Source: Gammaproteobacteria bacterium
GTDB taxonomy: Bacteria; Pseudomonadota; Gammaproteobacteria; SZUA-229
NCBI GenBank assembly: GCA_029882355.1
Contig: JAOUKV010000024.1
Span: forward strand, 1-48,653
Direction: 5' to 3'
Length of the DNA stretch: 48,653 nucleotides
Part shown: positions 25,297 to 36,983 of the stretch, in pieces
Layout of the letters: every line of letters begins with the position of its first letter
Position numbering within the stretch: position 1 is the stretch's first letter
Notes under the pieces: model-generated
Database searches by the model: none
Told to the model about the DNA's origin: nothing
What the model saw: the letters and a program-made list of their open reading frames with translations, nothing else
Made by a program: the position numbers and the translations under genes

Positions 25297-27027
25297 ATGA
25301 AAATAACTGAATTTTTTCCTTTTTTGAGCTGGCTACGACTAATTACAGGGGAATCATTTAAAGCTGATTTTATAGCGGGCTTAACAGGTGCGGTCATAGT
25401 TCTACCGCAAGGAGTGGCTTTTGCGATGATCGCAGGCTTGCCTCCAGAGTACGGTCTGTATACGGCAATGGTTACGCCCATTATCGCTGCTTTATTCGGT
25501 TCGTCATTTCATTTGGTATCAGGTCCAACGACAGCTATTTCCATTGTTGTTTTCTCTGCCATTAGCCATCATGCAGAACCGGGCACGGCTGAATTCATAT
25601 CATTAACCCTGACGCTTACATTTCTGGCCGGTGTTTATCAGCTGGCATTTGGATTGGCACGCTTAGGCTCGCTGGTTAACTTTGTTTCACATACCGTAGT
25701 GATAGGTTTTACAGCGGGTGCTGCGATTTTGATTGGCACTAGCCAAATGAAACATATCTTTGGAATTGCTGTTCCTAAGGGTGAGTCATTTCTAAATACC
25801 TGGGCTGACATATATAACGGTATTGGACAGACAAATTTTTATCTTATGATCATTGCTGTAGCCACAATGGTTGCAGCTCTACTGGTAAAGAAACTTAATC
25901 CCAAACTGCCAAATCTTTTAGTGGGCATGGTTGTCGGCAGTGTTATTGCACTAGTACTGAAAGAATATACAGATAGCATTGCGCTCGTCGGGGAAATTCC
26001 AGCACATTTGCCACCATTTTCAAGCCCGGAATTTTCTTTAGAAACTATAAGGATGCTTGCACCGGAAGCATTTGCCGTGGCTTTATTGGGATTGATTGAA
26101 GCCGTTTCTATTAGTCGGGCAGTGGCAACTAAATCACATCAAAGAATTAATGCCAATCAGGAGTTTATCGGTCAGGGCATGTCAAATATGGTGGGCAGCT
26201 TCTTCTCCAGCTATGCAGGCTCAGGCTCGTTTACTCGTTCAGGTATTAACTACGATGCAGGCGCTAAAACTCCGTTGTCAGCAATATTAGCGGCAATCAT
26301 GTTGATGTTCATCGTTTTGCTGATTGCGCCATTAACGGCATACCTGCCCATTGCAGCAATGGGTGGGATTATTTTATTAGTCGCATACAATCTCATTGAT
26401 TTTCATCACATTACGCAAATACTAACATTGAGTAAATCAGAAACATCAATTTTGTTAACGACATTTTTTGCTACCTTATTTCTTGAACTTGAATTTGCAA
26501 TATATTTAGGTGTTTTGTTGTCACTGGTTTTGTTTCTAGCGAAAACATCGACACCAAAAATACCAACATTATCGATCGATGTATCTTATAACGGAGCCAA
26601 AAGAAAATTCTCCAGTGTTCATAAAAAGCCACTTAAACAATGTCCGCAACTAAAAATTATCCGTGTAGATATGTCGATTTACTTTGGTTCGATTAACTAT
26701 ATCAATAAAGTTATTTCTAACATTTCAGAAAAAGAAGGTATTTATAATATATTGATTGTAGCTAGTGGCATCAATTTTATCGATCTTGCTGGTGCAGAAG
26801 TGCTTGTTACTGAGAATAACAGGTTACGGAAAAACAATGGTGGTTTGTATTTTGTTGGTATGAAATCGTCAGTTTATGAATTTGCAGCTAAATCGTGCTT
26901 TGTTAAAAAAATTGGCAGTGATCATTTTTTTGATTCAAAGGCAAGTGCTATCCATAATATATATGCTCGTCTTGATAGTTCAATCTGTAAAAACTGTAAT
27001 GCTAGAATATTTAATGAGTGTGAATAG
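25297..27027 (+). CDS. SulP family inorganic anion transporter with STAS domain
   Basis: A 576-residue transporter. It opens with the SulP signature ADFIAGLTGAVIVLPQGVAFA and AGLPPEYGLYTAMVTPIIAALFGSS, has 10-14 membrane segments to about residue 420, and a C-terminal STAS domain (IIRVDMSIYFGSINYINK, NILIVASGINFIDLAGAE). SulP proteins carry sulfate, bicarbonate or similar anions; the substrate cannot be told from sequence. The last 20 residues end in an unusual cysteine-rich tail (SSICKNCNARIFNECE). It is separate from the second SulP gene at 35460 and not closely similar to it. Confidence 0.9.
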   Translation: MKITEFFPFLSWLRLITGESFKADFIAGLTGAVIVLPQGVAFAMIAGLPPEYGLYTAMVTPIIAALFGSSFHLVSGPTTAISIVVFSAISHHAEPGTAEFISLTLTLTFLAGVYQLAFGLARLGSLVNFVSHTVVIGFTAGAAILIGTSQMKHIFGIAVPKGESFLNTWADIYNGIGQTNFYLMIIAVATMVAALLVKKLNPKLPNLLVGMVVGSVIALVLKEYTDSIALVGEIPAHLPPFSSPEFSLETIRMLAPEAFAVALLGLIEAVSISRAVATKSHQRINANQEFIGQGMSNMVGSFFSSYAGSGSFTRSGINYDAGAKTPLSAILAAIMLMFIVLLIAPLTAYLPIAAMGGIILLVAYNLIDFHHITQILTLSKSETSILLTTFFATLFLELEFAIYLGVLLSLVLFLAKTSTPKIPTLSIDVSYNGAKRKFSSVHKKPLKQCPQLKIIRVDMSIYFGSINYINKVISNISEKEGIYNILIVASGINFIDLAGAEVLVTENNRLRKNNGGLYFVGMKSSVYEFAAKSCFVKKIGSDHFFDSKASAIHNIYARLDSSICKNCNARIFNECE

Positions 27028-27699: not shown

Positions 27700-28266
27700 T
27701 TAATTCCTAACCGGGTATTTCGCCAGCTTACGTTGCAGTGTACGACGATGCATATTGAGCCTTCTCGCTGTTTCTGAAATATTGCCTTCGCATTCTGTTA
27801 ATACTTTGTGTATATGTTCCCATTCAACCTGGCCTACAGATAAAGGTTTAGATCTTATCGGTGTTTCTTTGTCACCTTCGGTGCGATAGAAAGCTTCAAC
27901 GATACCATCAGCATCTGCAGGTTTTGCCAGATAGTGTATAGCCCCCAATTTGATTGCTTCAACTGCTGTTGCGATTGACGCATAACCGGTGAGTACCACT
28001 ATGCGTGTATGTTCATCCTGTCGTTTTAATTCACTAACCATTTCAAGGCCAGATTTTCCCGGCATTTTTAAATCAACAACAGCAAATTCTGGTGGTTCTT
28101 TTTTTGCCTGCATAATACCATCATCAACGTTGTGCGCTGTGCTAACGGTATAGCCTCGTTTAGTTAGTGCTTCAGCAAGCACTTCACAGAATACTATGTC
28201 GTCATCGACAATTAGCAAACTGGGCTGGTCGGTCTGACCTTGTTGTATATTTTCGTGCTCGGTCAT
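27700..28266 (-). CDS. regA: RegA/PrrA/ActR family response regulator
   Basis: A 188-residue response regulator. The receiver domain has the acidic pocket DDD (residues 21-23), the phospho-acceptor Asp65 in VVDLKMPGKSG, and Lys115 in YLAKPADAD. The C-terminal Fis-like helix-turn-helix, EGNISETARRLNMHRRTLQRKLAK, is nearly the sequence shared by RegA, PrrA and ActR. These regulators control photosynthesis, respiration, carbon and nitrogen fixation genes in response to redox state. It lies immediately downstream of regB, with no gap. Confidence 0.93.
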   Translation of the reverse strand: MTEHENIQQGQTDQPSLLIVDDDIVFCEVLAEALTKRGYTVSTAHNVDDGIMQAKKEPPEFAVVDLKMPGKSGLEMVSELKRQDEHTRIVVLTGYASIATAVEAIKLGAIHYLAKPADADGIVEAFYRTEGDKETPIRSKPLSVGQVEWEHIHKVLTECEGNISETARRLNMHRRTLQRKLAKYPVRN

Positions 28267-29529
28267 TTAGCTAGATAATTTTATTGTAGATAAAGGAAGA
28301 TTAATTTGGCATTTAACGCCACCGCCTTCGCGGTTGTATATACGAACTTCACCGCCCAGTCGTTCGAGTGTGGTGTAGGTTAGAAACAAGCCTAAGCCCA
28401 TACCGTCCTGTTTGGTGCTCATAATCGTTTCACCCGCCTTCTCTTCAAGCTCAGGTGAGAGGCCATGACCACGATCTGAGACAATCAGTATTAATTCCTG
28501 ATCACTCCATTGTCCCTCAACTTCGACATTGTCAGGTGAGGCATCGGCAGCATTGTTCAAAATATTGAGTAGCGCCTGATCTAATGTTTGATCAACAACA
28601 ATGCTAGGGGCAGGTTGGGAGCCATTAAAATCAGACTGAACAACAACATCGCTACGTGATTGTTGCCAGCGCCCTAAAAGATTTAAAAGATAGTCGTCCA
28701 GTTTTGAGACACTGCCCGACTCTGCGCGAATTCCACCTGATGCAGCCGAGATAGAACCCAGTATTGTTTTGCAACGAGCAACCTGTCCTTGCAGGGTACT
28801 GAGTTTTGATGCTGATAATGGCGTGTCCGGTGTTAAATCTTTGAGCAGGATCGCCATGGTTGAAAGTGGTGTGCCCAGTTCATGCGCAGCACCGGCTGCC
28901 AGGGTTCCGAGTGCCAGTATATGTTCATGCTTCAAGTGTTTTTCACGTAGATCGGCAATCTTTTTGTTTTGACGTTGTACCGTGATCGCCATGCGAGCTG
29001 TAAATCCTGCGACCAATAGTGCACTAAAGATAAAGCCTAGCCACATACCCACAACATGCAGTCTGAATCCATCACCATGCATATTGTGTGTTTCAGGAAA
29101 TGGGATGTAAAAAAACAATAATAGTGAATAACAGCCGATAGTCAAAGCCACCATCACCCAGGCATACCAGCCATATAAGGTGGCGGCGGTTAGTACCAGA
29201 GGTAATAAAAATAATGGCGCGAATGGATTGGTAGAACCGCCAGAGTAATAAAGTAAAGAAGTGAGAACAAATACATCAATGATCAATTGAGCAAACAGCT
29301 CATTATTAGAAACCGGTAATGGTATGCGTAAGCGAACAAGGCTAGCGATGCTGATCGTGAAAGTCAGCGATAAAATAACTGTAATAGGAAATATTGGCAG
29401 TTCGACGTGTAGATAGGTAGTGGTTAACCAGACCGCAACTATGGCACCTAGCAGAACGATTAATCTCAGCCAGATAATACGCCGGACATTGATATTGTTT
29501 CCAGGGGTGTTGAGTTGTTCATTTAACAT
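28267..29529 (-). CDS. regB: RegB/PrrB/ActS family redox-sensing histidine kinase
   Basis: A 420-residue kinase with six membrane helices (about 20-185). The quinone-site heptapeptide GGSTNPF is at residues 97-103. The phospho-acceptor His216 is in GAAHELGTPLSTMA, and the redox-active cysteine is Cys253 in ARCKTIL, as in RegB. The ATPase has DNVEVEGQ, SDRGHGLS and GMGLGLFLT motifs. It should autophosphorylate under reducing conditions and signal to RegA. The ATG has no visible ribosome site, and a TATAAA sits only 9-14 bases upstream, so the mRNA may be leaderless. It diverges from the exbB-tonB operon. Confidence 0.93.
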   Translation of the reverse strand: MLNEQLNTPGNNINVRRIIWLRLIVLLGAIVAVWLTTTYLHVELPIFPITVILSLTFTISIASLVRLRIPLPVSNNELFAQLIIDVFVLTSLLYYSGGSTNPFAPLFLLPLVLTAATLYGWYAWVMVALTIGCYSLLLFFYIPFPETHNMHGDGFRLHVVGMWLGFIFSALLVAGFTARMAITVQRQNKKIADLREKHLKHEHILALGTLAAGAAHELGTPLSTMAILLKDLTPDTPLSASKLSTLQGQVARCKTILGSISAASGGIRAESGSVSKLDDYLLNLLGRWQQSRSDVVVQSDFNGSQPAPSIVVDQTLDQALLNILNNAADASPDNVEVEGQWSDQELILIVSDRGHGLSPELEEKAGETIMSTKQDGMGLGLFLTYTTLERLGGEVRIYNREGGGVKCQINLPLSTIKLSS

Positions 29530-29570
29530 TGCGGTAGTTTATAGCTTTTGTGTTTATTCATAAATGAGCT

Positions 29571-29600
29571 GCGACAATTTGTCGCGCGACACTGTGTCAC
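29571..29600. promoter_or_regulatory. two tandem RegA/PrrA-like binding sites
   Basis: GCGACAATTTGTCGC (29571-29585) is a perfect GCGAC-N5-GTCGC dyad. It is followed without a gap by GCGACACTGTGTCAC (29586-29600), the same dyad with one change. RegA/PrrA sites are described as GCGNC/GNCGC half-sites with variable spacing. The pair lies 42 bases upstream of regB and 83 bases upstream of the divergent exbB start, suggesting autoregulation and joint control of the TonB operon. Confidence 0.6.
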
Positions 29601-29682
29601 ATTTTAGCGTGTGCTTATATTCGATAGGATTAGGTTTCAGCAAGTTACCAATGACACAGTAATATTTTTTGTGATTAAGTTT

Positions 29683-30318
29683 ATGAGTGTACCCGAAATT
29701 TTCAGTAAAGGTGGGCCAGTTGTCTGGATACTACTAGCCTATTCGATAATTGCTTTTGCCATCGTCTTAGAACGTTATCTGCATTTCTTTCGTATTGGCA
29801 GATTACCACAGGCTTTTTCCAGTGATATGGAGCATGCCTCTAAAGTTGAGGATGTGCAATCATTGATCAAAGGCCTACGCGGTCCTGAAGTTGCTGTCCT
29901 TAGGGGCCTGTTACATGCACATAAGCAGGGCGTTCTTGATCTGGTGCGCGTGGCATCACGTATTGGTTCCTGGGAACTACAACGACTGCAAAAGGGTTTT
30001 CGTACACTGAGTATTTTAGGTGATACTGCACCATTGCTAGGCCTGTTTGGCACCATTACCGGCATGATCAAGGCCTTCATGGTGATTGATGAAATGGGCG
30101 GCAAAGTTGATGCGCAGATGCTGGCGGGTGGTATTTGGGAAGCCATGCTGACGACGGGTGTAGGTCTGGCGGTAGCATTGCCCATCCTGTTTTTATTGCA
30201 CTGGTTAGAGGGGCGTGCAGAACGTCATCGTCATGCGATGCAAAATTATGCCTCCATGTTGATTGAGACACTGCCGCATAAAAATACTCTCGCTGTCATT
30301 GAAAACGTTGAGCCATAG
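29683..30318 (+). CDS. exbB: MotA/TolQ/ExbB proton channel family protein, second copy
   Basis: A 211-residue ExbB-type protein beginning MSVPEIFSKGGPVVWILLAYS, the usual family start. An in-frame GTG at 29611 would add 24 non-conserved residues and is rejected. Three membrane segments are visible, including DTAPLLGLFGTITGMIKAF and GGIWEAMLTTGVGLAVALPI. It begins the operon exbB-exbD-tonB-receptor-BNR-thioredoxin and provides the proton channel for that TonB. It differs clearly from the copy at 8063. Confidence 0.9.
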   Translation: MSVPEIFSKGGPVVWILLAYSIIAFAIVLERYLHFFRIGRLPQAFSSDMEHASKVEDVQSLIKGLRGPEVAVLRGLLHAHKQGVLDLVRVASRIGSWELQRLQKGFRTLSILGDTAPLLGLFGTITGMIKAFMVIDEMGGKVDAQMLAGGIWEAMLTTGVGLAVALPILFLLHWLEGRAERHRHAMQNYASMLIETLPHKNTLAVIENVEP

Positions 30319-30332
30319 TAAGGGCTATCACT

Positions 30333-30734
30333 ATGGAATTTGAAGGTCTTACCTCCAGACACAAAACGCCCAACCTGACACCATTAATCGATATTGTGTT
30401 TCTGTTACTGGTTTTTTTCATGTTGACCGCTCACTTTGTTAAAGACCAGTCGCTGGACATAAATTTACCTGAAGCAAATAGTGCCACCAATCTTGAAGAT
30501 CAGGGTGCGCTAGAAATAGTCATTAATGATAATGACGACATATTAATAGACAAAAAAATCATTAAATCTGATGAGCTGGCGGTAGTCTTACAACAATCTT
30601 TGCAAGCTCGATCTAACAAGCAGGTGGTCTTGCACGGTGACAAAAGTTCGAAACTGGACTCAACCGTAAAAGTAATGGATGCGGCACGAAAGGCAGGTGC
30701 CGAATCACTGGATATCATTACAGACCAGCCATGA
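30333..30734 (+). CDS. exbD: ExbD family biopolymer transport protein, second copy
   Basis: A 133-residue protein with the membrane helix LTPLIDIVFLLLVFFMLTAHF near residues 16-36 (the Asp is the proton carrier) and a periplasmic domain with VVLHGDKSSKLDSTVKVMDAARKAG. Its stop overlaps the tonB start (ATGA), so exbD and tonB are translationally coupled. It forms the ExbB-ExbD motor for the adjacent TonB. Confidence 0.92.
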   Translation: MEFEGLTSRHKTPNLTPLIDIVFLLLVFFMLTAHFVKDQSLDINLPEANSATNLEDQGALEIVINDNDDILIDKKIIKSDELAVVLQQSLQARSNKQVVLHGDKSSKLDSTVKVMDAARKAGAESLDIITDQP

Positions 30735-31369
30735 TGCTCAATAACGTCACAGCAGATCAAGGTATTAACATGGGCGCAATAGCGATTTCGGTGTTGCTGC
30801 ACCTGATCTTGTTTGTGCAACTGACAGACACCGCCATGAGTAGTCAGGCACAGGCACCAAATTTTTCTACCCGAATCTCACTGAACTTGATGCAGCCTGC
30901 CAAACAACCGCCTCAACTGGTTAAGGCAGATATGCCACCACCTGAACCGGCACACAAGCCCAAGGCAGAATCAAAGCCAACGAAAAAACCAGAAGTAATC
31001 AAAACAGAATCTCCAGTGATTCCTGAGCTGGCAGTCGCTTCTAAAGTGGCAGAACAAGTTCAACGCGGCCAGGCCAAAGATGCAGCGCCGATTAGGAAAC
31101 ATTATTTAAATAACCTGCTGACCTATATTGAAGGTCATAAATATTATCCACAGTCAGCACGTAGTCGTGGCATCAAAGGCAGTATCGATGTGACTTTTGA
31201 ATTGTTGAATAACGGTGGCATTAATAATTTAAAAGCTAGCGGCGGCCCACTAATTTTACGTAAAGCTGCCGAGCAGGCGATTGCCAGTGCCTTGCCGTTT
31301 CCAGTTCCACCAACAGAAGTTAATTGTCCCTTGCAGGTGAGTTATGCCATGCAGTTTCAATTGAATTAA
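30731..31369 (+). CDS. tonB: TonB family energy transducer
   Basis: A 212-residue TonB. It has one N-terminal membrane helix (GAIAISVLLHLILFVQL) with the conserved His, a proline/lysine-rich periplasmic spacer (about residues 60-100) and a C-terminal TonB domain with YIEGHKYYPQSARSRGIKGS, then VTFELLNNGGINNLKASGG and LPFPVPP. It carries proton-motive energy from ExbBD to the outer-membrane receptor encoded 62 bases downstream. It is slightly short for the family, as expected of a dedicated TonB. Confidence 0.93.
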   Translation: MMLNNVTADQGINMGAIAISVLLHLILFVQLTDTAMSSQAQAPNFSTRISLNLMQPAKQPPQLVKADMPPPEPAHKPKAESKPTKKPEVIKTESPVIPELAVASKVAEQVQRGQAKDAAPIRKHYLNNLLTYIEGHKYYPQSARSRGIKGSIDVTFELLNNGGINNLKASGGPLILRKAAEQAIASALPFPVPPTEVNCPLQVSYAMQFQLN

Positions 31370-31431
31370 TAAGTAATTTTTATAGAGTATTTAACTATTT
31401 GTTTTTTAAAAATAATAATGAGGAATATGAA

Positions 31432-33561
31432 ATGAAATTGATGCCCTTAACCGCAACATTGTCAGCGGTTCTATCACTTGGAACTGTTACTGCGGTCTAT
31501 GCGGAAGAAGCAGCAGTTGAACAGGAAAACCTTGGCGAGATAACAGTCACAGGAACTCGGGAAAAAACGCTCAAAGCAGAAACACCAGCGACTGTTGGTA
31601 CGGTTGATAGCGAAGAAATCGCCAATGTTAAACCTTCACATCCTTCAGAAATTATGAGTCGCATTCCCGGTGTGCATATTAATGTAACAGGCGGTGAAGG
31701 CCATATGACTGCGATTCGACAGCCTTTAAGTACTTCACCTTTATATCTTTATTTAGAAGATGGTATTCCAACACGCTCAACTGGTTTCTTTAATCACAAT
31801 GCTATGTATGAAGTTAATGTACCTCAGGCCGGCGGCATTGAAGTTAATAAGGGTCCCGGTACCGCCTTATATGGAAGTGATGCCATTGGTGGTGTCATCA
31901 ATGTTTTGACTCGTCCATCACCGACGGAGGCTGAAGCTGAAATTAATCTGGAAGGCGGTGCAAACGGCTGGCAGCGCGTTTTGTTAACCGGTGGTAATAG
32001 TAACGATACCGATGGCTTTCGTGCTGATCTTAATTTAACCCACACCGATGGCTGGCGTGATTCCACAGAATATGATCGAGTTGGTGGCATGCTGAGGTGG
32101 GATCACTCACTTGAAAGCGGCGCAACATTAAAAACAGTACTGACCACGTCGAACATCGATCAACAGACCGCAGGCAGCTCACGTCTGTTAGCTGCAGATT
32201 TTTATGATGATCCAACCATCAACTACACGCCGATTTCCTATCGAGAAGTCGAAGCTCTACGTCTTTCTACCGCTTATGAAAAGGAAAGTTCCGATAGTTT
32301 ATTGAGTATCACCCCTTTTTATCGCCACAATCGGATGGAGTACATGCCTAACTGGTCATTTGGTTACGATCCGGCAATCAAGACAACTGAAAGTGATTCA
32401 TTGGGAATGCTGGTCAAGTACCGTATGGACCTAGATGGTGACAGTAGAAGCCGTATTATTGCAGGTGTTGATTTTGACTATACACCGGGTGAACGACTTG
32501 AAAATAATATCGATGCATACAAAACGGGTGCCATCTACACTTCCTATGTTTTAGGTGAAGTCATTTATGACTACGATGTAACCTACGAAGGTATCTCGCC
32601 TTATCTACATTTCGAAACATCACCGACTGATCGTTTACGTCTCAATGCAGGATTGCGTTACGACCATATCGGTTATGACTATACGGATAACATAGCCGCT
32701 GCACCAACTTCATATTCAGTAGATTTTAATGGCAGCATCAGAAACAGAACTAACAATCGTCCAACTGATGCCGTAGTGAATTTTTCACAGCTCAGTCCTA
32801 AGCTGGGCGCGACTTATGTGTTTAGTGATGACCTGAATGGTTTTGCCTCCTATCGTCGTGCTTTCCGTGCGCCATCTGAAGGTCAGTTATTCCGCCCCGG
32901 TTCGAGTGCGGTATCGTTAGATCTTGAAGCGGTTAAGGTCGACAGTTACGAACTTGGTCTACGTGGCAAGGCGAGTAAAAGTTTTGATTACGAAATCTCG
33001 CTTTATCACATGATTAAAAAGGATGATCTGGTTACCTTCATCGATCCTGTTGACACTACCATTCGCTACACTGTGAACGCTGGCGAAACACAGCATCAGG
33101 GAATAGAGCTTGGGTTAAATAATAAACTGACTGAAGAACTTAAACTGGCGTTTAGTTATTCATACGCCAAACACACCTATGCAGATTGGGTACATTCTGG
33201 TAATGATTACACCGATAACGAAATGGCAGTAGCGCCACGTGAAATCATGAATACCCGGTTAAACTGGACACCTTCAATATTGAACGGTGGTAATGCAGAA
33301 CTTGAATGGGAACGTCTGGGTGAATACTGGATGGATAATGACAATACGTATAAATATGGTGGTCATAATCTGCTTAATTTCCGTGCAAAATATAATTTCG
33401 ATAAAAAACTGGAACTATATGGTCGTGTGATGAACCTTGCAGATAAGCTTTATGCGACAAATGCTAGCTACACTCCAGCTGGTTTTGGTCCTGAAAAATT
33501 TGAATATGCACCAGGTATGTCACGCGCTGTTTATGTGGGCGTGAATTACAATTTTTATTAA
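31432..33561 (+). CDS. TonB-dependent outer-membrane receptor
   Basis: A 709-residue receptor. The start at 31432 gives a good signal peptide (cleavage after AVYA, residue 24), and AGGAA lies 6 bases before it. A TonB box LGEITVTGT is at residues 34-42. The plug domain follows, with PSEIMSRIPGVHINVTGG, YLYLEDGIPTRS and GGIEVNKGPGTALYGSDAIG. The 22-strand barrel ends MSRAVYVGVNYNFY with the terminal aromatic. Overall it resembles receptors for metal complexes and vitamin B12 rather than SusC-type glycan receptors; the ligand is not known. It lies directly downstream of its own exbBD-tonB. Confidence 0.92.
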   Translation: MKLMPLTATLSAVLSLGTVTAVYAEEAAVEQENLGEITVTGTREKTLKAETPATVGTVDSEEIANVKPSHPSEIMSRIPGVHINVTGGEGHMTAIRQPLSTSPLYLYLEDGIPTRSTGFFNHNAMYEVNVPQAGGIEVNKGPGTALYGSDAIGGVINVLTRPSPTEAEAEINLEGGANGWQRVLLTGGNSNDTDGFRADLNLTHTDGWRDSTEYDRVGGMLRWDHSLESGATLKTVLTTSNIDQQTAGSSRLLAADFYDDPTINYTPISYREVEALRLSTAYEKESSDSLLSITPFYRHNRMEYMPNWSFGYDPAIKTTESDSLGMLVKYRMDLDGDSRSRIIAGVDFDYTPGERLENNIDAYKTGAIYTSYVLGEVIYDYDVTYEGISPYLHFETSPTDRLRLNAGLRYDHIGYDYTDNIAAAPTSYSVDFNGSIRNRTNNRPTDAVVNFSQLSPKLGATYVFSDDLNGFASYRRAFRAPSEGQLFRPGSSAVSLDLEAVKVDSYELGLRGKASKSFDYEISLYHMIKKDDLVTFIDPVDTTIRYTVNAGETQHQGIELGLNNKLTEELKLAFSYSYAKHTYADWVHSGNDYTDNEMAVAPREIMNTRLNWTPSILNGGNAELEWERLGEYWMDNDNTYKYGGHNLLNFRAKYNFDKKLELYGRVMNLADKLYATNASYTPAGFGPEKFEYAPGMSRAVYVGVNYNFY

Positions 33562-33586: not shown

Positions 33587-34834
33587 ATGTACAAAGGGGC
33601 ATTACTTAGCCAGATTTTTTTAATGTTATTTGGCTTCATGGTAACAGCTGAAGCGGCGATGAAAGAACATCAGCATCATAATGCTGATATCTCAAATACA
33701 GTCTGCGATAAACAGGGTGTTATGCCATCGCTGAGCTGTGCCAATGCCCCGAGTGCTGTGTTTGATAATAACGGAAGGTTATGGCTTGCCTGGGTATTTG
33801 GTGAACATGTCTACGTCAATTATTCCGATGACAAAGGAAAAACTTACAGTCCGCCTGTAGCGGTTAACACTGTTGCCGAAAATATTTATGCCATGGGTGA
33901 GAATCGCCCTAAAATTGTTGTAACGAACAAAGGGCATATTTATATTTCCTGGACTCAAAAATTATCCAAACGCTTCAGTGGTCATATCCGTTTTAGTCGT
34001 TCGATTGATGGTGGCAAACATTTTTCTGAACCAATTACTGTTAATGATCATCTGGTTGTTACCAGTCATCGGTTCGATGCTATGGCAGTTAATGATCGTG
34101 GTGATATATATCTGGCCTGGCTGGATAAACGTGATCTATTGGCGGCAAAGAAAGCAGGGCAGCCCTACAATGGCGCGGCAGTTTATTATGCAGTTTCTAC
34201 CGATGGTGGAATCACATTTAATACTAATGAAAAAATAATCGATAACAGCTGTCAGTGTTGTCGTGTTGTCATGGCGATTGATAATGATCAACTGCCCGTT
34301 GTTTTATGGCGACATATTTTTGGCGATAATATTCGTGATCATGCCCTGGTTAAATTTGATAGCCAGTTAAAGTCAGGGAAGGTAGTGCGGGTCAGTCATG
34401 ATCAATGGCAGGTCGAAGCCTGTCCGCATCATGGTCCTGATATTTCCATCGCCGATAATGGTAGTTATCATCTCGTCTGGTTCAATAATGCCCCAGAGCG
34501 TCATGGTCTGTTTTATGCGAACACATCAGATCAGGGGAAAAATATTTCAACCGCCATCAATTTTGGTAATTACAATAAACAGGCAGCACATCCCCAGGTA
34601 TTAAGTCAGGGCAAGGCTGTCTTTATAGCGTGGAAAGAATTTGATGGCAAACAGGCAACGTTGCTAACCATGAAATCACCTGATTCAGGCAAGACCTGGT
34701 CAGAGCCGCGAGTCCTGGAAAAAACCACGGGTAATTCAGATCATCCCTTATTGATCAATGATGGCAAGAAAGTTTATGCCGTCTGGCATCGTCGCGGACA
34801 GGATTACCAGTTGTTCCCGCTCAACAATGATTAA
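33587..34834 (+). CDS. secreted BNR/sialidase-like beta-propeller protein with Cys/His motifs
   Basis: A 415-residue exported protein (signal peptide ending TAEA near residue 23) with Asp-box (BNR) repeats: YSDDKGKTYSPP, RSIDGGKHFSEP, VSTDGGITF, TSDQGKNIST and SPDSGKTWSEP. These mark a six-bladed sialidase-type propeller, but the Arg triad of true sialidases is not evident, so the enzyme activity should not be assumed. Possible metal ligands stand out: HQHH at residues 28-31, CQCC at 222-225 and ACPHHGPD around 278-284. It lies 25 bases after the receptor gene and overlaps the thioredoxin gene by 8 bases, so it probably serves the same uptake or maturation process. Confidence 0.8.
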   Translation: MYKGALLSQIFLMLFGFMVTAEAAMKEHQHHNADISNTVCDKQGVMPSLSCANAPSAVFDNNGRLWLAWVFGEHVYVNYSDDKGKTYSPPVAVNTVAENIYAMGENRPKIVVTNKGHIYISWTQKLSKRFSGHIRFSRSIDGGKHFSEPITVNDHLVVTSHRFDAMAVNDRGDIYLAWLDKRDLLAAKKAGQPYNGAAVYYAVSTDGGITFNTNEKIIDNSCQCCRVVMAIDNDQLPVVLWRHIFGDNIRDHALVKFDSQLKSGKVVRVSHDQWQVEACPHHGPDISIADNGSYHLVWFNNAPERHGLFYANTSDQGKNISTAINFGNYNKQAAHPQVLSQGKAVFIAWKEFDGKQATLLTMKSPDSGKTWSEPRVLEKTTGNSDHPLLINDGKKVYAVWHRRGQDYQLFPLNND

Positions 34835-35330
34835 GATCATGTTTCAACGAAGTGTTTTTTTGTGTCTTCTACTGTGCGCCAGTTCTTTAGTCATGGCAGC
34901 GCAAGAAGTAAATATATTCAAAGCCGGAAGCTATGCGCAATTTTTAGAACAACGGAAGAATCAGCCCTTCATGCTGGTGTTCTGGTCGCTGGATTGTCCA
35001 CCCTGTTATAAAGAACTGACAATACTGGCCGAGGAAACCAAAAATCAGCCACAACTTGATCTGGTACTGGTATCAACCGACACCACCGACGACATCAAAG
35101 AAATTCAACAGAAGTTAAATAAGTTTGGTTTTACTCAGGTTGATGCATGGGTATTTCAAAATGAACTGGCGCAGCAACTGCGTTATGAAATTGATCCCAA
35201 CTGGTACGGAGAATTACCCCGCAGTTATTTGTTCGATGCCCGGCATAAGCGGCAATCGATCTCAGGCATTCTAAAACCAGCTGTCTTGCAGCTTTGGGCT
35301 AGCCTGCAGGCTGAAACCAGTAACCAATAA
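34827..35330 (+). CDS. periplasmic thioredoxin-like protein (TlpA type)
   Basis: A 167-residue protein with a signal peptide (MFQRSVFLCLLLCASSLVMA, cleavage near residue 24) and a thioredoxin fold. The redox motif is VFWSLDCPPC (Cys57, Cys60), followed by LDLVLVSTDTTDD and the cis-Pro segment GELPRSYLFDARHK. It overlaps the BNR gene by 8 bases. The role is likely periplasmic thiol reduction, perhaps of the cysteines in the neighbouring BNR protein or its cargo. An alternative start is the ATG at 34839. Confidence 0.85.
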   Translation: MIKIMFQRSVFLCLLLCASSLVMAAQEVNIFKAGSYAQFLEQRKNQPFMLVFWSLDCPPCYKELTILAEETKNQPQLDLVLVSTDTTDDIKEIQQKLNKFGFTQVDAWVFQNELAQQLRYEIDPNWYGELPRSYLFDARHKRQSISGILKPAVLQLWASLQAETSNQ

Positions 35331-35459: not shown

Positions 35460-36983
35460 ATGTTTAAGTTAGGCTGTCAAAGTCGAGTATGTTTTCAAAA
35501 TGAAATTCTGTCTGGACTGACGGTTGCTCTGGCACTGGTGCCAGAAGCGGTAGCTTTTGCCTTTGTCGCTGGTGTTGATCCTCTGGTGGGGCTCTATGCC
35601 GCCTTTATGGTGGGTTTACTGGCTTCTATCTTTGGTGGTCGTCCGGGTATGATCTCAGGCGCAACCGGTGCTATGGCGGTGGTCATGGTCGCGCTAGTCG
35701 CACAACACGGTGTTGAATATCTGTTCGCTGCGGTTGTTCTGACGGGGCTGATACAAATTCTTGCTGGAATATTACGACTGGGTAAATACATCCGCATCGT
35801 GCCGCATCCTGTCATGTTGGGTTTTGTGAATGGACTGGCGATTGTCATCTTTCTCGCACAGATTCCCCACTTTCAAATTCCTGGTAGCGGTGGTCAATGG
35901 ATGGCGGGTAACGAGCTAATGATTTTTGCTGGTCTTATAGTATTAACAATGGCCATTATTCATTTTCTGCCAAAACTGACTTCAGCTTTTCCTGCATCAT
36001 TGGCCGCCATTATCGTGGTCTCATTATTGGTGATAGGTCTGGATATGAACACCAAGACGGTCGGTGATTTAGCTTCCATCAAGGGTGGTTTCCCCGTCTT
36101 CCATATTCCTGGCGTGTCATTCAGCATGGAAACATTAAGAATTATTTTCCCCTATGCCATTATTCTTGCTGCGGTGGGTTTGATTGAATCACTATTAACA
36201 ATGACTTTGATTGATGACATCACCGGCACCCGTGGTCGCGGTAATCGTGAATGTATGGGTCAGGGTATCGCTAATACAGTGACTGGTTTTTTCGGTGGCA
36301 TGGGTGGTTGTGCGATGATTGGTCAGAGTATGATCAACGTCAACTCCGGTGGTCATCAACGCCTGTCGGGTATTTCGGCTGCGTTGTTCCTGTTGATGTT
36401 TATCATGTTTGCCTCCGGCCTGATTGAAATGATACCTATGGCTGCACTGGTCGGTGTCATGTTCATCGTCGTTATGGGCACGTTTGAATGGTCCAGTCTT
36501 CGCATCATGGGCAAAATTCCAAAGACCGATGCCTTTGTCCTAATACTGGTATCGGGCGTGACCGTGTTCAGCGACCTTGCCGTTGCTGTTGTCGTTGGTG
36601 TGATCGTCTCAGCCTTATTCTTTGCCTGGGAAAATGCCAGTCATATTCATGTGAAAAGTTATGATGTAGAAAATGGTTCACGTGTTTACGAATTAAATGG
36701 ACCGTTATTTTTCGGCTCAGTGAAAAACTTTCTTGATCTGTTTACACCTGCCGAAGACCCGGACGATGTCATTATCGAATTTCAAAATTCACGCGTCGCG
36801 GATCACTCTGCGATTGAAGCAATTGATAATCTGGCGGAAAAATATATCAAGGCCGGTAAAAAACTGCACCTGCGTCATTTAAGCCCTGAATGTACCGAGC
36901 TATTAACCAAAGCAGGTGATCTGGTTGAAGTTAACATGTTGGAAGATCCGAAATACCATGTTGCGGACGATAAGTTATCTTAA
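35460..36983 (+). CDS. SulP family anion transporter with STAS domain, second copy
   Basis: A 507-residue SulP transporter. It begins with [21 protein letters not shown] and [35 protein letters not shown], has about ten membrane segments, the conserved [20 protein letters not shown] loop, and a C-terminal STAS domain ([19 protein letters not shown]... [12 protein letters not shown]). This subgroup is often annotated as sulfate permease; bicarbonate is also possible. CCGAGG is 4-5 bases before the ATG. It is followed 17 bases later by yaiI. Confidence 0.92.

Follow-up and report, generated by a model that had tools for sequence, protein, structure and literature searches.

Twin RegA-type palindromes between regB and a divergent TonB-receptor/BNR/TlpA operon as a candidate bidirectional operator

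Two abutting palindromes lie between regB and a divergent TonB uptake operon in the window, i.e., the whole stretch of 48,653 nucleotides of gammaproteobacterial DNA analysed here, and raise the question of which protein binds them and which of the two flanking operons they serve. An initial annotation had described two back-to-back RegA/PrrA-like sites at this locus; both are indeed found, at 29571-29600, and the neighbouring genes are confirmed as RegB/RegA family members, ExbB, ExbD, TonB, and a TonB-dependent receptor. The region comprises the following features:

27700..28266, minus strand: regA, response regulator with a Fis-type HTH (NCBIfam ActR/PrrA/RegA, E 6.9e-64, 215 bits)
28267..29529, minus strand: regB, redox sensor histidine kinase (NCBIfam ActS/PrrB/RegB, E 7.4e-68, 229 bits)
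29538..29543, minus strand: possible regB -10 element, TATAAA, seen by eye between site 1 and the regB ATG and not found by the promoter scan
29571..29585, unstranded: RegA-type site 1, GCGACAATTTGTCGC, regB-proximal, a perfect 15-bp palindrome kept in genus mates
29586..29600, unstranded: RegA-type site 2, GCGACACTGTGTCAC, exbB-proximal, a near-palindrome adjoining site 1 and retained in those genus mates that have the operon
29594..29621, plus strand: possible exbB sigma-70 promoter, GTGTCA-16-TATATT, weak, its -35 element overlapping site 2
29683..30318, plus strand: exbB/tolQ-like proton channel, first gene of the operon, divergent from regB (Pfam MotA_ExbB; orthologues in genus mates)
30333..30734, plus strand: exbD (Pfam ExbD)
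30731..31369, plus strand: tonB (Pfam TonB_C)
31429..33561, plus strand: TonB-dependent receptor (Pfam Plug and beta-barrel)
33587..34834, plus strand: BNR/sialidase-like beta-propeller, probably periplasmic
34827..35330, plus strand: TlpA-like thioredoxin-fold protein with a CPPC motif (Pfam AhpC-TSA), start codon uncertain, the ORF opening at 34758

The favoured reading, to which we give a rough probability of 0.83, is that the 30 bp would constitute one bidirectional RegA operator, dedicated to both regBA autoregulation and redox control of the uptake operon. Phosphorylated RegA would bind both abutting dimer sites and, from this twin, would control regB-regA in one direction and exbB-exbD-tonB-receptor-BNR-TlpA in the other, so that the uptake operon would follow the redox signal sensed by RegB.

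The two regulators display the features of the RegB/PrrB/ActS and RegA/PrrA/ActR families. RegB comprises (i) the GGXXNPF quinone motif, as GGSTNPF at residue 97, (ii) the HELGTPL H-box at residue 216, and (iii) a cysteine near the H-box, within RCK at residue 252, this cysteine 253 being presumably the equivalent of Cys265. Both GGXXNPF and Cys265 are named in the excerpts of PMC8191878. RegA comprises a receiver and a Fis-type HTH (Pfam Response_reg and HTH_8), the HTH aligning with PrrA 1umq and the response regulator 3rqi, with SETARRLNMHRRTLQR identical to PrrA 1umq over the aligned stretch. The scores of 229 bits for RegB and 215 bits for RegA fall below the NCBIfam equivalog cut-offs of 350 (NF033792) and 250 (NF033791), respectively; none of the 80 genomes with a BNR protein considered below (0/80) reaches the RegA cut-off either, although their best RegA matches fall into two clearly separate groups, an upper one of 53/80 scoring at least 172 bits and the others at 90 bits or less.

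Site 1 is an odd palindrome in which 7/7 arm pairs match, compared to 6/7 in site 2. On one side, 41 bp separate the sites from the regB ATG, at 29529 on the minus strand; on the other, 82 bp separate them from the likely start codon of exbB, an ATG at 29683. Within each palindrome, the half-sites are about one helical turn apart, a spacing that suits a dimer with a Fis-type HTH, and at a pitch of 15 bp two dimers would come to lie on roughly opposite faces of the DNA; two RegA dimers may bind cooperatively. Both sites resemble the inverted-repeat RegA-box pattern GCGNC-N5-GNCGC, site 1 at 15/15 positions and site 2 at 14/15. Site 1 matches the R. capsulatus RegA motif at 15/15 positions and the B. 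japonicum RegR box at 14/15, site 2 the former at only 12/15 and the latter at 13/15, both motifs being taken as quoted in section 27 of PMC5506826.

It could be argued that such palindromes arise by chance and have no function, since one GCGNC-N5-GNCGC per window is unremarkable: the pattern matches once here and at least once in 36/100 shuffles, and site 1 alone could be chance. The twin is not. GCGAC-N5-GTCGC with at most one mismatch has 3 matches in the window vs 0.70 expected, as many being reached in 3/100 shuffles, and the 30-bp twin pattern with at most two mismatches occurs at a single place in the 2.88-Mb genome and at exactly one place each in 5/6 other genomes of the genus, the reversed pattern having no match in any of the 7. 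As the twin is also much better conserved than its flanks, with conservation extending to other genera, as described below, a fortuitous origin is very improbable. The sixth genus mate, G003, shows no twin at this threshold in a genome-wide scan. In G001, a genome without the TonB operon, the single twin sits at another locus than regB (L198, G001:C15:360-389), before a gene reading as a small 4Fe-4S ferredoxin.

A promoter scan of 351 bases returned 2 promoter-like sites vs 1.0 expected in shuffles; at the position of the possible regB -10 element, the aligned genus mates carry TAGAAT or TAAAAT. Because site 2 overlaps the possible exbB -35 element and site 1 lies just upstream of the possible regB -10 element, RegA control would presumably take the form of activation.

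Conservation of the 30 bases in relatives with the same gene order, the lack of which the initial annotation had named as grounds for refutation, is observed within the genus: in an alignment of five genomes with regB and exbB divergent (the present one, G002, G004, G005, and G006), 27/30 site columns are invariant vs 41/123 columns of the intergenic flanks (p 1e-8 by Fisher's test, with the columns taken as independent). Among the 20 best RegB relatives, the region upstream of regB holds the site in 18/20 at no more than one mismatch and in 16/20 exactly, and the reversed motif in 0/20; a twin at the 15-bp pitch, two mismatches in all being allowed, occurs in 8/20, and at 17 bp in 2 more. The two relatives without a site (L067 and L068) both come from other families of the class. 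The predicted autoregulation of RegA thus gains independent comparative support, regB retaining its upstream site whether or not the TonB operon is present there.

The same data could suggest that the operator serves regB alone, the TonB operon being a bystander in the common intergenic region. Indeed, the site is kept before regB in 13/15 relatives outside the genus, in which no exbB was found divergent from regB, and G001, which has lost exbB to TlpA at this locus, leaving regB opposite the sulfate-permease-type gene that in the window comes after the operon, retains a single degenerate regB-proximal site, GCGGCTAATTGTCAC. On the other hand, G001 shows no exbB-proximal site at up to one mismatch after the loss of the operon (nor any BNR match in its genome), and the motif, partly as a twin, precedes TonB-receptor/BNR operons of other genera, betaproteobacteria included, for which the stretch retrieved contains no regB. 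A role confined to regB is, on balance, improbable. Against the bidirectional reading, the TonB operon is present in the genus mate G003 (89% complete) and RegB has no match there (best E 1e-5); its contig ends inside exbD, so the operon promoter is unreadable there.

The motif also stands before such operons elsewhere. In three genomes of other genera (G028, G017, and G025), the operon lies on a different contig from regB and is preceded by a twin with at most one mismatch per site, and in G030 operon and regB are co-linear on the same contig, and a separate twin accompanies each of them. A BNR profile scan of genome contigs was used to extend the comparison to the 80 best of at least 492 loci, spanning Gallionella, Nitrotoga, Sulfuricella, methanotrophs, two Nitrospirota MAGs, and others, with RegA scored as present at a best match of 172 bits or more and as absent at 90 bits or less. 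Within 3.5 kb before BNR (or to the contig end), the exact site is found in 22/53 genomes with RegA and in 0/27 without, RegA absence being judged mostly in MAGs of unknown completeness, and the reversed motif in 0/80. Before the operon itself, in the 58 testable loci, the site at one mismatch or fewer occurs in 26/42 genomes with RegA vs 1/16 without, counts that are not independent of descent, and the exact site in 21/42 vs 0/16. The RegA control of the divergent TonB operon proposed in the initial annotation is thereby supported on comparative grounds. Since the motif precedes the same operon elsewhere, the assignment of the operon as a target is independent of the shared regB promoter.

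The 22/80 loci dropped include (i) 18 without a large ORF before BNR, (ii) 2 with fewer than 250 bases upstream, and (iii) L111 and L114, in which the operon start is off the contig; among the dropped loci, three with RegA (L136, L153, and L162) carry an exact match before BNR, compared to none of those without RegA. Four loci (L109, L112, L113, and L116) were scored before the first gene of the operon by a rule set post hoc. An earlier form of the comparison, made without the operon-start changes, gave 22/39 vs 1/18 at no more than one mismatch, 19/39 vs 0/18 for the exact site, and 0/57 for the reversed motif. In that form, 20/22 sites in genomes with RegA fall 72 to 110 bp before the receptor start, the site of L140 lying 23 bp inside a guessed start and that of L156 192 bp before a guessed start. 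The sole site-bearing locus without RegA is L119 (GC 0.64). Six loci (L109, L112, L113, L116, L120, and L122) are the same contigs as G006, G025, G017, G030, G021, and G028, already counted, and are therefore not independent; 20/36 loci with RegA bear the site when they are left out.

The pattern is not uniform across lineages. All 14/14 methanotrophs tested that encode RegA have the BNR operon with no site within 400 bp of the receptor; leaving out the methanotrophs, the site precedes the operon in 26/28 genomes with RegA. L118 and L145 have RegA and no site before the operon. Corrected for the BNR tree, the comparison comprises only 5-6 independent pairs, of which 2.8 to 4.3 agree and 0 to 0.1 disagree on average, and the sign test gives a median p of 0.125 to 0.25, not below 0.05. 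Besides G030, three loci have genes of the two systems close together: (i) in L178, a Muproteobacteria MAG, regBA is divergent from the operon with the site between them, its RegA being 71% identical; (ii) in L166, a MAG named Sulfuricella denitrificans that also bears the site, regBA lies about 5 kb from the operon, with a second receptor operon between; and (iii) in L144, a Gallionellaceae MAG, regA comes after the operon, from which a twin separates it. In Sulfuricella sp. T08 (L142), neither RegA nor a site was found.

Could another metal- or redox-sensing regulator bind the palindromes and happen to control regBA as well as the operon for uptake? The poor fit of site 2 to the R. capsulatus motif (12/15) would speak for it. 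Against such a regulator stand the agreement of site 1 with the published RegA (15/15) and RegR (14/15) motifs, the occurrence of the exact site before the operon in 0/16 genomes without RegA, and the presence of sites at nosR and nnrS, nosR representing a gene class bound by RegR. We judge this alternative no more probable, and if anything slightly less so, than a role confined to regB, and take RegA to be the protein that would bind the twin.

The candidate targets nosR and nnrS come from a search of the genome with a loose motif, GYGNCANNNTGNCRC, which occurs at 17 places vs 6 for the reversed pattern. Of these, 15/17 were read, comprising the twin (2 places) and 13 others, those on C54 and C58 being left out; 10/13 non-twin places were discounted as lying inside ORFs, including an exact match in a response-regulator gene (G000:C29:82639). 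The matches outside ORFs or at ORF starts are the twin and three variants. GCGACA-N3-TGACGC occurs between nnrS and a lipoprotein gene as well as at the nosR start. The former variant, GCGACATAGTGACGC, is intergenic (G000:C13:52973; L092, 3974-3988), the lipoprotein gene being followed by thioredoxin-fold and cytochrome-like genes, and the same 15 bp are present twice around that lipoprotein gene in G001. The latter (G000:C50:83513; L093, 4014-4028), with a rubrerythrin gene on its other side, is kept in 3/5 genus mates searched (G002, G004, and G006), a conservation that may be partly coding because the site falls within the first codons of the mechanical ORF; the true nosR start is taken to lie downstream of the site. 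In B. japonicum, RegR binds the nosR promoter, at which a similar putative box is described in the excerpts of PMC4064962, and the nosR sites together with this binding support RegA as the binder. The third variant, GCGACACTGTGACGC (G000:C36:8560; L091, 4061-4075), overlaps the first codons of a mechanical ORF for a protein of 264 residues that has no Pfam hit.

Several known systems resemble the proposed arrangement. Characterised regBA operons are described as autoregulated in the excerpts of PMC5506826. As in the RegA/PrrA/ActR/RegR regulons, the locus comprises RegBA homologues with a PrrA HTH, an operator that fits published motifs, and nosR as a common type of target (excerpts of PMC4064962); it differs in displaying two abutting palindromes at an exact 15-bp pitch, common to a TonB-receptor/BNR/TlpA operon. 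The initial annotation had called the latter an unusual RegA target. Instead, it looks like a recurrent one in beta- and gammaproteobacteria, methanotrophs excepted, and a link between RegA and iron uptake is already in print: according to excerpts of the respective reports, some 40 iron-uptake genes are under RegA repression in R. capsulatus (PMC5359404), and the expression of tonB, a receptor gene, and feo is RegA-dependent in Methylomonas sp. DH-1 (PMC13274454). Thus, RegA alters the expression of TonB-type or iron-transport genes in both organisms, and there is precedent for TonB uptake under RegA control. In DH-1, however, the ChIP data excerpted from PMC13274454 place RegA binding at feo and not at the receptor or tonB promoters, so that the effect on the latter two genes looks indirect, whereas a conserved predicted operator lies in the TonB operon's own promoter region here. 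A TonB-receptor/BNR/TlpA operon with a direct, conserved RegA operator was not found in the excerpts of the open-licence literature searched.

The candidate operator GYGRCA-N3-TGYCRC, in some genomes doubled at 15 bp, is sharp and searchable, and could be used for RegA in uncultured, iron- or nitrogen-cycling beta- and gammaproteobacteria. Its good definition is useful because no RegA motif could be deduced in At. ferrooxidans, as stated in the excerpts of PMC5506826. That the motif is kept before both regB and the operon, even when they are apart, suggests that the redox sensor may control its own genes and a probable metal uptake together. An uncharacterised TonB-receptor/BNR/TlpA uptake operon would in this way be tied to the respiratory redox state, which suggests when the operon is needed, while nosR and nnrS as fellow candidates suggest what it may import.

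Regarding the proteins of the operon, the best solved relatives of the receptor are YncD/PqqU, at about 81 bits. Membership in the CrtA copper family was considered and rejected, the receptor matching the CrtA structure 9RVQ (code taken from PMC12914433) at 35 bits. CrtA-type copper transporters are alike in comprising a TonB-dependent receptor, sometimes with its own ExbBD/TonB, tied to respiration; CrtA operons, in contrast, usually encode PepSY_TM and often CruR, in place of the BNR and TlpA proteins found here (excerpts of PMC12914433). The BNR protein preserves CxCCR and CPHHGP as invariant motifs across 14 aligned sequences and shows only weak sialidase matches among PDB sequences (E of 0.015 or more). 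Its AlphaFold2 model (mean pLDDT 84) resembles sialidases and lectins in Foldseek at 10-15% identity, a likeness that speaks for a propeller and not for any substrate. Members of the BNR family occur in Gallionella, Nitrotoga, and methanotrophs, among others, and no experimental function was found for them.

The TonB-receptor/BNR/TlpA operon is probably a metal importer. Speculatively, the substrate might be copper, possibly in chelated form, destined for respiration at low oxygen or by denitrification; copper is the first guess, in view of the thioredoxin-fold partner with its CPPC motif and of nosR and nnrS as further candidate targets, and iron the second. A broader proposal, which we regard as tentative and somewhat doubtful, is that the receptor/BNR-propeller/TlpA operon forms a core direct RegA target across beta- and gammaproteobacteria, dedicated to the import and delivery of copper or another metal and switched on by the quinone/oxygen sensor RegB at the time when respiratory enzymes with copper, for instance N2O reductase or high-affinity oxidases, are built, the twin palindrome acting as a cooperative switch.

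Further twins mark a second TonB-receptor gene that precedes the BNR operon, lying at its start or upstream of it, in L143 (1722-1751), L129 (1632-1661), L133 (1422-1451), and L166 (2668-2697), the second receptor being confirmed in L143, L133, and L166 and recognised by layout only in L129. In L166 and L143, a NapH-like ferredoxin and a DsbD-like membrane protein are encoded after this gene, and they fit metal handling and do not identify the metal; the second receptor and these genes are possibly the second half of the same uptake system. Finally, two SulP-type permease genes, at 25297-27027 and 35460-36983 of the window, flank the regBA/TonB region on both sides.
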